From a virus: 20,405 bases of DNA. Below the pieces are notes generated by a model. The model had not been told where the DNA came from. It saw nothing but the letters and a program-made list of their open reading frames with translations, and made no database searches. The stretch covers positions 1 through 20,405 of IMG/VR virus record IMGVR_UViG_3300032291_002409; one strand, written 5' to 3'. The position numbers were made by a program, and so were the translations under genes. Below are positions 3 to 15,503 of the stretch, piece by piece (the stretch's first letter is position 1; each line of letters begins with the position of its first letter).

Positions 3-860
3 TCTGAATACGATGATATACTTGATAGTTCAGATTCTCCTTATGGTGCTGACCAGCCTTCTGTGTTTACTGCCTTAGCTGCTTTTTTTTTTGATTTAGG
101 CGGAGGAGGTTCACAGGACTTAGCAAGTGTTTTAAATGTTGGCAATACATCAGGCTCAAACGATATTGCGTTCGATTCTACTTATGGTCTTTATTTTAAT
201 AATACTTCCCGACTAAGAGAGGGAACTATAGATGCAGGTCTTGGAGGTACAAAAGGTATTGCTCAAATTTGCGCCGTTGGTTACGAGTTAAAATGGGAAG
301 CTGGCAGGTTATACGTAATGGATGGTAATGGTATTTACATTAGACATTCATTGTATAATTTTACAATACCACCTTCTGTAAATGATGATTCTTCAAAAGG
401 TTATTTAGTTGGTAGTCGCTGGTCATTAGATGATGGTAATGTTTATGTTTGTTCGGATTCTACAACTGGTGCTGCTGTTTGGACATTAGAAACTGTTACA
501 ATCCCTATTGATATTCAGGCTGCATGTAGTGATGAAACTACAGCATTAACAACTGGTACTGCTAAAGTTACATTTAGAGTTCCATGTGCTATTACTTTAA
601 CATCAGTTAGAGCATCACTTACAACAGCACAAACTTCAGGTTCTATCTTTACAGTAGATATAAATGAAGGTGGAACATCAATTTTAAGTACCAAGCTAAC
701 AATAGATAATACAGAAAAAACATCTGTAACTGCTACTACTCCTGCTGTTATATCTGACACAGCATTAGCTGATGATTCAGAAATAACAATTGACATTGAC
801 CAGATAGGAGATGGAACTGCAAAAGGATTGAAAATAACTCTAATTGGTGTACGCTCATGA
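3..860 (+). CDS. Tail-fibre / receptor-binding-type structural protein, 5' end missing
   Basis: The reading frame is open from the left edge of the window (285 codons from position 3), so the gene starts outside it; a GTG at 63 is only an internal possible start. A glycine-rich stretch leads into a QDLASVLNVGNTSGSNDI motif often seen in phage fibre proteins. A second segment, GYLVGSRWSLDDGNVYVC followed by DSTTGAAVW, is the common 'GxxVGSxW...YVCxDxTxGxAVW' fibre motif. The last ~110 residues, beginning at SDETTALTTGTAKVTF and ending in GLKITLIG, form a beta-rich C-terminal domain typical of phage appendage proteins. The role inferred is host contact at the tail tip. The stop codon overlaps the next start (ATGA, 857-860). 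The family assignment is by motif memory; the exact receptor is unknown. Confidence 0.75.
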   Translation, partial: SEYDDILDSSDSPYGADQPSVFTALAAFFFDLGGGGSQDLASVLNVGNTSGSNDIAFDSTYGLYFNNTSRLREGTIDAGLGGTKGIAQICAVGYELKWEAGRLYVMDGNGIYIRHSLYNFTIPPSVNDDSSKGYLVGSRWSLDDGNVYVCSDSTTGAAVWTLETVTIPIDIQAACSDETTALTTGTAKVTFRVPCAITLTSVRASLTTAQTSGSIFTVDINEGGTSILSTKLTIDNTEKTSVTATTPAVISDTALADDSEITIDIDQIGDGTAKGLKITLIGVRS

Positions 861-11779: not shown

Positions 11780-11783
11780 GTCT

Positions 11784-11998
11784 TGTAACAGCCTTTTTAA
11801 ATCGTTACAAAATTGTTACACATAACTTATTGAAATTCAATTCATGTTACAATGTAACGGTTGTAACGGAAAATAATATATATATATAGAGTAATTATAT
11901 ACCTATATGTATGTATTAAAATCGTGTTACATTTGTTACATTGTTACAATATAGTATTTATCGATATCTTGATGTAACAAAAATGTAACCGATGTAAC
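11784..11998. repeat. Iteron-like array of GTTACA/TGTAAC repeats, candidate origin or packaging site
   Basis: Twelve exact copies occur within 215 bp. TGTAAC starts at 11784, 11853, 11862, 11973, 11984 and 11993. GTTACA starts at 11804, 11815, 11846, 11926, 11935 and 11943. The right cluster is three forward then three reversed copies, nearly symmetric about TATCGATA at 11959-11966. The two clusters flank an alternating AT-rich tract (about 11870-11922). No reading frame of note crosses it. The arrangement is that of an iteron replication origin with a DNA-unwinding element; its place just before the terminase genes also allows a packaging (pac/cos) recognition site. Confidence 0.75.
11870..11922. 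other. AT-rich core between repeat clusters
   Basis: This is a nearly pure A/T tract with alternating TA steps around 11876-11888, placed between the left and right repeat clusters. It could be the easily melted element of an origin. Confidence 0.4.
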
Positions 11999-12023
11999 AA
12001 TAGAAAAAATCAAAAAAAAAACA

Positions 12024-12037: not shown

Positions 12038-12096
12038 GTCTGTCATAAAGTAGTTTAAGCAAGGGGACAGGTTGTAGTTTATCCTGTCCCTTTTTT
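12038..12096 (+). ncRNA. Possible short leader RNA ending at the terminator
   Basis: The interval from the expected transcription start to the T run is about 59 bases. It has no reading frame of note and is mostly the terminator hairpin. It could be a small RNA or a leader whose read-through is regulated, as with lambda 6S RNA at pR'. This is inferred only from the promoter-terminator spacing. Confidence 0.35.
12061..12096 (+). terminator. Strong intrinsic terminator / attenuator upstream of terS
   Basis: The stem GGGACAGG/CCTGTCCC (12064-12071 with 12083-12090), extendable to 11 bp with AAG/TTT outside, has an 11-nt loop and is followed by six T residues. It stands between the promoter at 12024 and the TerS start at 12207 with the late genes downstream, so it either ends upstream transcription or acts as an attenuator. 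Confidence 0.9.
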
Positions 12097-12144
12097 AAAA
12101 ATCTTCGATTTAAGACACTTTTTTTTTATTTTTATAGTAGAGTA

Positions 12145-12206: not shown

Positions 12207-12560
12207 ATGCCTTTCGAACCTGGTAATACTTTAGGCAAGGGAAGACCAAAGGGAGCAATAAATAAAACCACTTCCGAAACAAAAGAATTCCTTGCTCGAA
12301 TCTCCAACAAACTCGGAAAAAGAGTAGAGGAGGACTTAGACTTAATGGACCCTAAAGACAGGGTTAAAATTTGGCTTGAACTACAGGAATACTTAATACC
12401 AAAATTAAGCCGAACCGAACTAACTGGAGAAGATGGCGGAATGATAGAGATACAACAAACCTTAAAACTCGAAAACCTTGGCATTGCTCAACTCAGAGAA
12501 CTTGAAAGAATTGCTGAACTTGCAGCGGATTCGTCAGCTGATAGCAGCCAAGGAGTTTAA
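12207..12560 (+). CDS. terS: Terminase small subunit
   Basis: This 117-residue protein starts at an ATG with an A/T-rich leader. Its N-terminus, GNTLGKGRPKGAINKTTSET (6-25), is the basic 'GRPKGAxNK' element of a common small-terminase family. It continues with helices around FLARISNKLGKRVEEDLDLM (28-47) and DRVKIWLELQEYLIPKLSRT (51-70), matching the 'P.DR...W..L.EYVIPKLxRTE' pattern. The role is to recognise the packaging site on phage DNA and load the large subunit. The repeat array just upstream is a candidate site. The last ~80 bases overlap the large-subunit frame (+1 relative to this frame). Confidence 0.82.
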   Translation: MPFEPGNTLGKGRPKGAINKTTSETKEFLARISNKLGKRVEEDLDLMDPKDRVKIWLELQEYLIPKLSRTELTGEDGGMIEIQQTLKLENLGIAQLRELERIAELAADSSADSSQGV

Positions 12561-13920
12561 GCGTTTCGTTAAACAGACAAAGCCTGACTATCAGTTTTCA
12601 TGGCATCACAATCTTTTAATTGACCATTTGCAGCAGTTTGCAGAAGGTAAGATTCGAAAGCTTATGGTGTTCATGCCTCCACAACATGGTAAGTCTGAAC
12701 TAACATCCAGGCGATTACCTGCCTATTTGCTTGGCATCAATCCAAAACTAAAGATTGTCGGATGTTCCTATTCTGCCGATCTAAGCAGAAGTTTTAACCG
12801 AGATGTGCAAAGGATAATGGATGATGATGTCTACATAGATATCTTCCCAAATACCAGGTTAAACTCTTCGAACATCAGGACAAGTGCTAAAGGTAGTTAC
12901 CTGAGGAATGCAGACATTTTCGAGATTGTAGAGAATGTAGGTTTTTATAAATCTGTTGGTGTTGGTGGTTCACTTACTGGTACACCTGTTGACATTGGCA
13001 TCATAGATGACCCTGTTAAGGATGTTGTAGAGGCTAATTCATTAACCTACAGAGCAAGGGTTTGGGATTGGTATAATGGTGTTTTTTCTACTCGTTTGCA
13101 CAATAACTCTCAGGTGCTTATCACTCAGACTCGATGGCATGAAGATGACCTTAGTGGTAGAATACTAAAGCAAAAGGATGCACATGAATGGACAGTCTTA
13201 ACCTTACCTGGTATCCTGATGACAGCAGAAAAGAATCAGGATGACCCGAGAAAGATTGGAGAAGCACTATGGGAAGACAGGCATAGCTTATCTAAGCTTA
13301 TTAAATTTCAAGAGAATTCTCCAAGACTATTTCAAGCGATGTACCAGCAAGACCCGAAGCCTTTTGAAGGTGGATTGGTTTATCCTCGTTGGAATGCTAT
13401 CGAAGAGACAGAATACAGAGCCATAAACATTGAGCCATTATACGGATTAGACTTTGGTTACAGTACCAGTCCTGCTGCATTCGTAGAGATAAAACTGGAT
13501 ATGCTTAACAGAAAGATTTACGTTAAGCAACTAATCTATAAAAGGGCAATGGGTATCGATGAACTTGGCGATCAAATTAACAGGACCATTCAGACAGGCA
13601 GAAGCAAGATAATTGCAGATTCAGCAGACCCGATTCTGATAGACCATTTAAGAGGCAAGCATAGGTTAAACGTACACAAAGCAGACAAGGGGAAGGATAG
13701 TATTTCCTATGGTATTTCTGTTATCAATGAATTTGAACTGGTGGTTACAAGCGAAAGCAAAGATGTTGCCATGGAACTTTCTAACTACAGATACAAAGAG
13801 GATGCAGATGGCAATCCATTGGATGAGCCTATCAAAGAATATGACCATAGCTTGGATGCTATGCGCTATGCAGTTACATCAGTTATCTCAAAGAAAAACA
13901 ATAAATTTTTACTACTATGA
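12478..13920 (+). CDS. terL: Terminase large subunit (ATPase-nuclease)
   Basis: The frame gives 480 residues from a TTG at 12478. The Walker A-type PPQHGKS is at 67-73, VDIGIIDDPVKD at 171-182 holds the Walker B acidic pair, and TQTRWHEDDL (217-226) is the coupling region. The RNase H-like nuclease has candidate acidic residues Asp325 (LDFGY), Asp381 (ADSADP) and Asp456/460 (YDHSLDAMRYA). It drives ATP-dependent DNA packaging and cuts the concatemer. The start is uncertain. A stop sits at 12463 in this frame and the first in-frame ATG is just before Walker A (residue 63), so translation must start at a TTG (12478, 12484, 12502, 12511 or 12520) or enter from the terS frame. The stop overlaps the next start by ATGA. 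Confidence 0.93.
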   Translation: MALLNSENLKELLNLQRIRQLIAAKEFKRFVKQTKPDYQFSWHHNLLIDHLQQFAEGKIRKLMVFMPPQHGKSELTSRRLPAYLLGINPKLKIVGCSYSADLSRSFNRDVQRIMDDDVYIDIFPNTRLNSSNIRTSAKGSYLRNADIFEIVENVGFYKSVGVGGSLTGTPVDIGIIDDPVKDVVEANSLTYRARVWDWYNGVFSTRLHNNSQVLITQTRWHEDDLSGRILKQKDAHEWTVLTLPGILMTAEKNQDDPRKIGEALWEDRHSLSKLIKFQENSPRLFQAMYQQDPKPFEGGLVYPRWNAIEETEYRAINIEPLYGLDFGYSTSPAAFVEIKLDMLNRKIYVKQLIYKRAMGIDELGDQINRTIQTGRSKIIADSADPILIDHLRGKHRLNVHKADKGKDSISYGISVINEFELVVTSESKDVAMELSNYRYKEDADGNPLDEPIKEYDHSLDAMRYAVTSVISKKNNKFLLL

Positions 13921-14159
13921 TAAATGCAAAAGACTTTAAAATTCACTTAGACATGATGATAAGTGAGATTGAATCAAACACAGAAAGATTCAGTTTACAG
14001 ACAAGGCAGCTAATGAATAACCTTATTGCATCCAGGCGGATATGTGAAAGGATATTATCTGACCAGTCTATCCTGGAGAAGCAAGGGAAGGAATACTTTG
14101 AACACAATATGCCTAAAGAGAAGAAACCAATTAAGATATCAAAACCCAAAAACAAATGA
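13917..14159 (+). CDS. Small coiled-coil/basic-tailed hypothetical protein
   Basis: This 80-residue protein has a long amphipathic helix (about 5-62) and a basic, proline-containing end KEKKPIKISKPKNK. It has no membrane segment, signal or catalytic motif. It overlaps TerL at its start and the next gene at its end, both by ATGA, so it is part of the late translational relay. The family is not recognised; small helical proteins here may assist packaging or tail assembly. Confidence 0.6.
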   Translation: MINAKDFKIHLDMMISEIESNTERFSLQTRQLMNNLIASRRICERILSDQSILEKQGKEYFEHNMPKEKKPIKISKPKNK

Positions 14160-14788
14160 TTGATTTAAAAATTGAAGGGATTAAATACAATCTACCTGGA
14201 TTGAAACAGATACAACTTGGTAAGTTTGTAGAATACCTTGATTTCATCACAGAGCATGAACCCCAAGAAGGAGAAGAGGACCCATTATCATGGCTAAATT
14301 TCTACACTAACCACATTGCCTTTTGGACTAATGCAGATATCAAGCTTATAAGGAAGTGTAAGGTAGAAGATATCGCTGGTGTCTATGCTGTACACAACAA
14401 ATATTTAGCACCAGTAGAAGATTCTACATATAATTGCTTTAAATGTGTGGATGAAATATACTATCTTCCGAAAAAGTTTATGTCTGACAGCACAATAGAA
14501 GACTTTGCAGAAGCGAGTGAGTATGAAAAGCAATTGGCAGAAGTATTAAATGGGCAGTATGAAGCATTACCGAAAGTGGCTTCTGTTCTATGCAGGAAGG
14601 AAGGCGAAAGTTTTGACGATTACAATATAGAAGAGAGAGCAAAGTTATTTGAAGAGCATCTTACCGCTTATGATTTATTTCAGATAGGTTTTTTTTTGCA
14701 GAGACAAAGCGAAAAATTGCAGACCAATTCGGAAATCTATATGAAGAGTCAGATGCTCGCAGCCTTAAAGCAGGAGTCAAGGACCTAA
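14156..14788 (+). CDS. Probable tail assembly chaperone (G-like, zero-frame product)
   Basis: This 210-residue acidic protein is highly charged, with a helix-rich character. The part before the slippery site ends TAYDLFQIGFFL (residues ~170-181). Codons 179-181 run through a nine-T tract, and ribosomes that slip -1 there would skip the last 30 residues (ending AALKQESRT) and make a 263-residue fusion (separate entry). A zero-frame protein with a frameshifted longer form is the hallmark of lambda gpG/gpGT-type tail chaperones, which coat the tape-measure protein during tail assembly. That function is inferred from the frameshift and operon position; the sequence itself is not one I recognise with certainty. 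Confidence 0.65.
   Translation: MIDLKIEGIKYNLPGLKQIQLGKFVEYLDFITEHEPQEGEEDPLSWLNFYTNHIAFWTNADIKLIRKCKVEDIAGVYAVHNKYLAPVEDSTYNCFKCVDEIYYLPKKFMSDSTIEDFAEASEYEKQLAEVLNGQYEALPKVASVLCRKEGESFDDYNIEERAKLFEEHLTAYDLFQIGFFLQRQSEKLQTNSEIYMKSQMLAALKQESRT
14689..14697 (+). promoter_or_regulatory. Slippery site for -1 ribosomal frameshifting
   Basis: Nine consecutive T residues give zero-frame codons GGT TTT TTT TTG. T_TTT_TTT (14689-14695) or T_TTT_TTG (14692-14698) fits the X_XXY_YYZ rule. The -1 frame has a TGA at 14671-14673 and then stays open to 14946. No clear downstream hairpin or upstream Shine-Dalgarno stimulator is visible, so efficiency cannot be judged. Confidence 0.75.
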
Positions 14789-14946
14789 TAGAACCCTTCG
14801 GTTGGTTTGCTACGTTTGTTACTTTAGCTGGAGGGGATATTCTAAAGATTAAGGAAGCAGCAAAGCTACCATTATACACAGCATTTGCCTTTTTGAGTCT
14901 TAAGACTGCGCACAATGAATTTGAAAAAAATATGATGAAGCAATGA
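14695..14946 (+). CDS. -1 frame extension of the tail chaperone (T-like domain)
   Basis: The -1 frame encodes 83 codons after the slip. It begins AETKRKIADQFGNLYEESDA, passes through a hydrophobic LIEPFGWFATFVTLAGG core and ends with FEKNMMKQ before TGA at 14944-14946. There is no ATG, GTG or TTG close to its beginning, so it cannot readily start alone. Two facts argue that it is real: it fills the otherwise empty gap between 14788 and 14943, and its stop overlaps the next gene's start by ATGA, the coupling used throughout this operon. The expected product is a 263-residue fusion made in a minority of translations, whose extra domain would recruit tail-tube subunits in the lambda gpGT model. 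A one-base homopolymer error is the alternative. Confidence 0.7.
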   Translation, partial: FAETKRKIADQFGNLYEESDARSLKAGVKDLIEPFGWFATFVTLAGGDILKIKEAAKLPLYTAFAFLSLKTAHNEFEKNMMKQ

Positions 14947-15503
14947 CAATAACACAGTTATCCAATATTTTTAATCTGATTGTACAGAACGATAGTGATT
15001 ACAAGTTTTTTCACTATGGATTTCCATCGGATGTAAACATAAATATCCAAAACAACTTTGACCCATTAGGCGATACAGGTAGACTATTCCCTTATCTGTT
15101 GTTGATACCTCCTGTTCTACAGAGCAGAGCAATGGAGAGTAATACTGAGGCTATATTTGATACTTATCAGGTAGAGTTTTTAATTACAGATACCTATGCG
15201 TACAATCAGGGAATTCTGACATACAAGAATGAGACTACAATTGAGATAGAGCAGAACTTACAGATATTGGCTAAAAAGATTATTCAGTATTTGTTAGACT
15301 ATTCTGCGGTGTCGAATCCTCCATTTAACGTTGGAGATTATCGAATCGAGTTTGACCCATACAGATTTACAGCGGATACAAGGAGCATAAGAGTGCAGTT
15401 AGATTTGGTATTCCCTGCAATCTGTGATGACAGCACATTGGATATTTCATTCCTTCCAATAGACCTGGAAGATATCAGCACAACAGATGAGGAGAAACAA
15501 TGA
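14943..15503 (+). CDS. Tail/structural hypothetical protein
   Basis: This 186-residue protein starts at an ATGA overlap with the -1 frame stop and overlaps the next gene by ATGA (15500-15503). It has mixed alpha/beta character. An N-terminal helix is followed by ILTYKNETTIEIEQNLQILA (about 95-114), which continues into KKIIQYLL, and an acidic C-terminus (DLEDISTTDEEK). It resembles no enzyme and has no signal or membrane segment. Position between the tail chaperone and a gp10-like protein suggests a tail-completion or tail-terminator role, on synteny only. I do not recognise the family. Confidence 0.6.
   Translation: MTITQLSNIFNLIVQNDSDYKFFHYGFPSDVNINIQNNFDPLGDTGRLFPYLLLIPPVLQSRAMESNTEAIFDTYQVEFLITDTYAYNQGILTYKNETTIEIEQNLQILAKKIIQYLLDYSAVSNPPFNVGDYRIEFDPYRFTADTRSIRVQLDLVFPAICDDSTLDISFLPIDLEDISTTDEEKQ

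Follow-up and report, generated by a model that had tools for sequence, protein, structure and literature searches.

A conserved T9 tract with an open −1 frame predicts a frameshifted gene pair, probably of tail assembly chaperones, close to the terminase gene of a metagenomic virus

Introduction

In phage lambda (gpG/gpGT), as in the HK97-type pairs, a single gene of the structural operon gives rise to two tail assembly chaperones: shortly before the shorter product would end, a −1 change of frame yields a C-terminally extended fusion. The lambda gene lies just before that of the tape measure protein, and its frame change takes place on the ribosome, at the slip site G_GGA_AAG. The tape measure protein is bound by both gpG and gpGT, whose T domain in turn contacts the subunit of the tail tube (PMC5009743).

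RNA polymerase can slip as well. Bacterial RNA polymerase does so with high efficiency on runs of nine As or Ts in vivo, and U_UUU_UUU is a weaker ribosomal slip site in E. coli than A_AAA_AAG (PMC5009743). Runs of Tn with n>8 have been cited as transcriptional slip sites (PMC3711429).

Here we describe a gene that resembles the lambda and HK97-type pairs in belonging to a structural operon, in a −1 change late in the shorter product and in a C-terminally extended fusion, which in our case is predicted. It comes from a virus record of 20.4 kb in a collection of metagenomes, and we call this whole stretch the window. Unlike lambda gpG/gpGT, to which it shows no detectable sequence similarity, the gene follows that of the terminase large subunit (TerL) and carries a T9 homopolymer. 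In this last respect it recalls Thermus dnaX and Shigella mxiE, where A/T runs of about nine nucleotides also give two products from one gene, although the proteins are unrelated, and slippage was shown experimentally in those systems and is predicted here.

Results

Two open frames over a T9 tract

All the genes of this locus lie on the plus strand. The TerL gene (12478–13920) is readily recognized (Pfam Terminase_3C, E=3.8e-17, and Terminase_6N, E=2.4e-11; PHROG 38, E=3.7e-68), and it is followed by an 80-aa gene with no family match (13917–14159). The next open reading frame (14156–14788) encodes the putative gpG-like product of 210 aa, for which short beta strands and helices are predicted. 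It crosses nine Ts (14689–14697) with the codons GGT TTT TTT TTG, so that two slippery heptamers are in phase: T_TTT_TTT (14689–14695) and T_TTT_TTG (14692–14698). In the −1 frame the sequence is open from 14674 to 14946, that is, 91 codons with the stop. The candidate gpT-like extension (14695–14946), counted from the TTT at 14695, comprises 83 residues plus the stop, and a first-order model gives P=0.0019 for an open stretch of 249 nt arising by chance. Both frames are coding between 14699 and 14788, where synonymous and zero-frame third-position differences are reduced. The stop of the −1 frame, TGA, shares an ATGA (14943–14946) with the start codon of the following gene, which encodes 186 aa (14943–15503).

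These data agree with the first-pass annotation of the window in the coordinates of the tract and the open frame, in the ATGA overlap and in the lack of a usable start for the −1 frame: a codon scan of the window found no ATG, GTG or TTG in that frame until 34 codons 3′ of the zero-frame stop. One point of that annotation has to be corrected, since a tract of eight Ts would not give one uninterrupted frame; it leads into the +1 frame, and ten or seven Ts would be needed. A scan of all the genes of the window, of two long related contigs and of phage P12024S looked for a 9-nt homopolymer within an overlap followed by a shifted-frame extension of at least 40 codons belonging to no other gene, and returned only the T9 gene and its homologues.

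From a single start, the locus would give a major product of 210 aa and a minor one of 263 aa, whose last 30 residues would be replaced by the 83-residue C-terminal domain through a −1 change at the T9. The predicted fusion reads QIGFF-FAETK at its junction, and its predicted tryptic junction peptide ends in ...AYDLFQIGFFFAETK.

Conservation of the tract and of both frames

Relatives were collected by scanning viral contigs with the two parts of the gene and with TerL as queries, and 18 contigs besides the window cover the tract. One of them is identical to the window at this locus and the others are 36–69% identical in the 210-aa product, with identities of 46–87% for the extension. The T9 is found in the same codon phase (GGT/GCT-TTT-TTT-TTG) in all 18 contigs, as are an open −1 frame, inside which one contig ends, and a zero frame that continues for about 30 codons beyond the tract. 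The homologue alignment that the first-pass annotation had proposed as a check thus finds both the T run and the −1 frame conserved. The wobble T is kept even where glycine is replaced by alanine (GCT, in the L044 group). The ATGA overlap is retained in the closer relatives, and L043 and L044 have a nearby stop and start instead.

In comparisons of sequence pairs with the same amino acid at a site, which are not independent because the sequences share descent, a different codon is used in 44.5% of the comparisons upstream of the tract and in 14.4% of those in the overlap, but in none of the 210 that fall within the four tract codons. Elsewhere in the gene, codons differ in 54% of the comparisons for Gly, 25% for Phe and 66% for Leu. 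The wobble T of Gly/Ala and that of Phe, which are silent and of consequence for slipping alone, are fixed. Past the end of the overlap, the −1 frame changes mostly at third positions, as a protein-coding sequence does (0.285, 0.190 and 0.515 for positions 1 to 3). Third-position differences of the zero frame, which are first positions of the −1 frame, fall from 0.538 upstream to 0.229 in the overlap. This third-position-biased extension, together with the depressed change at zero-frame third positions in the overlap, argues that both frames are kept as protein. The conserved residues of the extension start at the tract itself. As far as comparisons of this kind can show, the T9 is invariant and both frames are conserved under purifying selection. 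A programmed change of frame at the T9 that yields the 83-codon extension, as first proposed for the window, is thus strongly supported by the invariance of the tract and by selection on both frames.

Downstream stimulatory RNA structures are frequent, though not required, at ribosomal −1 sites. No conserved one was detected here, with z-scores from −1.8 to +1.4 among 8 sequences and a covariation term of +0.3. An in-phase X_XXY_YYZ heptamer (T_TTT_TTT) occurs in all homologues, as is unavoidable in any T9, and all of them likewise carry the homopolymer of nine or more A/T that characterizes transcriptional slip sites.

Similar loci in cultured and named phages

The closest cultured counterparts are the Nonlabens (Persicivirga) phages P12024S and P12024L (JQ823122, JQ823123), which also have, after TerL, a gene with a T9 and a −1 extension of about 80 codons. 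In P12024S, gp38 comes directly after TerL, and its T9 is read as CTT TTT TTT TAT, in a codon phase unlike that of the window; the −1 extension reaches 54 codons past the gp38 stop. This T9 layout is also present in P12024L and in another contig. The zero-frame products of P12024S and of the window could not be aligned by sequence, but a 175-aa P12024S product, of the length of gp38, matches the model of the 210-aa product (Foldseek E=2e-5), among many unnamed phage proteins. The two extensions match weakly by profile (hhalign E=1.6e-4, probability 50%, for the single pair compared), and this similarity already starts before the ATG at which gp39 is annotated to begin. GenBank gives gp39 as a separate protein of 55 aa (gp38/gp39, JQ823122, L072:23136-23830), and no frameshift is annotated in either phage. 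Given its T9 and open −1 frame, gp38/gp39 is probably a frameshift pair too, with MLEAPLIAYSSCILFFLSFR as its predicted junction peptide.

When the extension was searched against named phages, the only protein found at the right position was the product of the third gene of Elizabethkingia phage TCUEAP1 (QGZ15838.1, E=0.3), whose C-terminal part resembles the extension by profile (hmmsearch E=5e-4; hhalign E=3e-5). This gene also lies right after TerL, but it runs for 180 aa in a single uninterrupted frame without any homopolymer, which indicates that the frameshift device is not universal. A direct protein search with the 210-aa product gave no match among named phages at E<=1. Flavobacterium phage 6H has a 191-aa gene with a weak fold match to this product (TM 0.3), and an unannotated open frame occupies the gap after it (L073:10047-10927, minus strand); no clear slip site was found from the −1 stop to the stop of the 191-aa gene, and the gene was discarded as a counterpart. 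In Polaribacter phage P12002L, which was compared for gene order only, the layout is different. Relatives of the extension and of TerL were not found in cellular genomes, and thus no host or prophage is named. A partial search of the literature turned up no description of such a device in phages of Bacteroidota.

Affinities of the products and genome context

No significant Pfam or PHROG match was obtained for either part of the gene, and solved structures in the PDB gave no meaningful match by sequence or by fold. Two homologues gave a weak hit (E=0.045) to PHROG 1442, a family of tail assembly chaperones. The AlphaFold model of the 210-aa product (pLDDT 78, pTM 0.76) resembles a named tail assembly chaperone in BFVD (Foldseek E=0.011, prob 0.98, TM 0.41), and the model of the 83-aa extension (pLDDT 59) is of too low a quality for a structural search.

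Two related contigs of 35–36 kb give a wider picture of the genome, with tape measure and portal assigned by PHROG match and the other genes by size and inference. In both, one or two small genes lie between TerL and the T9 gene, and the order then continues with a gene of the 186-aa type, one of 165–170 aa, the 414-aa and 711-aa types and a tape measure gene of 1100 aa; the capsid and portal genes are located elsewhere in these contigs. Since these relatives encode a tape measure protein and are long-tailed phages, a tail chaperone is expected in them, and the all-gene scan found no other gene with a comparable frameshift layout. The T9 gene does not occupy the typical, though not strictly defining, site directly upstream of the tape measure gene, from which it is separated by about 6 kb and several genes. 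The location near TerL that the first-pass annotation called unusual is therefore real, although it is a trait of the lineage, common to P12024S and the related contigs.

The 186-aa gene stands beside the pair in nearly all relatives, and its size and position suggest a neck or tail completion protein. In one subgroup (G001, L046/L048), the frameshift pair and the gene of the 186-aa type are separated by an inserted 108-aa gene whose product, judged by eye, resembles nucleotide pyrophosphohydrolases of the MazG type (L060:15723-16049 in G001).

Other elements of the window lie upstream of the packaging operon. An intergenic cluster of TGTTACA/TGTAACA repeats, direct and inverted (11780–12010), could be a replication origin or an operator array, and just upstream of the operon an inverted repeat, GGGACAGG...CCTGTCCC, is followed by a T run in the manner of an intrinsic terminator (12062–12097). 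At the start of the window (3–860), the ORF listed from the GTG at 63 has a T10 tract at 83–92; its frame is already open where the contig begins and it looks like an internal part of a 578-aa gene of G002, and is thus a truncated gene.

Discussion

The pair described here is probably a counterpart of the gpG/gpGT tail assembly chaperones of siphophages, as its architecture, its context and weak profile and fold matches indicate, and it most likely belongs to a divergent family placed after TerL. The part shared by both products would coat the tape measure protein and the extension would recruit tail tube subunits. The first-pass assignment to tail chaperones stands as plausible and as the best explanation, backed by architecture, distant fold similarity and context, although no significant family match sustains it. 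A frame change near the 3′ end that gives an extended form is present and conserved in relatives; the 30 codons by which the zero frame outlasts the slip count against the assignment.

Among the alternatives, a sequencing or assembly error that splits a single 263-aa gene comes to mind for any homopolymer, given how prone these are to errors, and TCUEAP1 does carry a one-frame gene at the corresponding place. We rule it out as practically inconceivable, because the identical T9 recurs in the isolates P12024S and P12024L and in each of the 18 related contigs, almost every one of which stems from a different metagenome, and because conservation of the zero frame and selection on it extend 30 codons beyond the tract. 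The extension could otherwise be a separate downstream gene in chance overlap. A standard start of its own is ruled out by the lack of ATG, GTG and TTG in the overlap of the window, so that a non-standard one would have to be invoked; the −1 frame does contain ATT codons, and in P12024S an ATG overlapping the gp38 stop is the one from which GenBank calls the 55-aa gp39. But conservation of the extension begins at the tract, similarity to P12024S begins upstream of the gp39 ATG and the fixed silent Ts would be left unexplained, all of which make an independent gene very improbable. The frameshifted pair might instead serve in packaging, in the neck or in some other step of tail assembly, as a factor of which little of the longer form is required. 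Its position right after TerL, beside neck-like genes and far from the tape measure gene, would suit such a role, as would the absence of a family match; still, the architecture, the sizes, the helical extension and the fold matches favor tail chaperones, the long relatives offer no other chaperone candidate, and we consider this alternative unlikely.

A different question, which leaves the proteins unchanged, is where the slip occurs. We lean slightly towards the ribosome, which would slip at T_TTT_TTT, as in the known cases of tail chaperones; the nearly even chance is that an extra U is added by RNA polymerase as it transcribes the T9, and that ribosomes read the altered mRNA normally. The run is exactly nine in all homologues and in P12024S despite the differing codon phase, a length that meets the Tn, n>8, rule (PMC3711429) and on which polymerase slippage is efficient in vivo, whereas U_UUU_UUU is the weaker ribosomal site (PMC5009743). 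The downstream RNA, neither stable nor covarying, points the same way. Against this, the amino acids encoded in the two frames already dictate the eighth and ninth Ts, and the exact length of the tract is therefore not independent evidence, and the in-phase ribosomal heptamer comes with any T9. The first-pass statement that gpG/gpGT-type chaperones use exactly this device was too strong, since lambda gpG/gpGT is ribosomal and transcriptional slippage fits the present locus about equally well.

Taken as a tail chaperone pair, the locus raises a more speculative idea, which we find rather unlikely as a whole: that in this lineage, related to flavobacterial phages, the chaperone ratio is set by RNA polymerase slippage on the T9 and not by the ribosome, with translation of the 186-aa gene perhaps coupled to it, since the start of this gene and the stop of the rarer frame share the ATGA. 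In any case, these results reveal an unannotated and well-conserved pair of frameshift products in phages whose hosts are probably Bacteroidota, and suggest a corrected annotation for gp38/gp39 of the isolated phage P12024S. Searches confined to the region immediately preceding the tape measure gene can overlook such pairs. With P12024S and P12024L, both isolated from seawater, there are cultured phages in which slippage by the ribosome could be distinguished from slippage by RNA polymerase as the source of the tail-assembly ratio.
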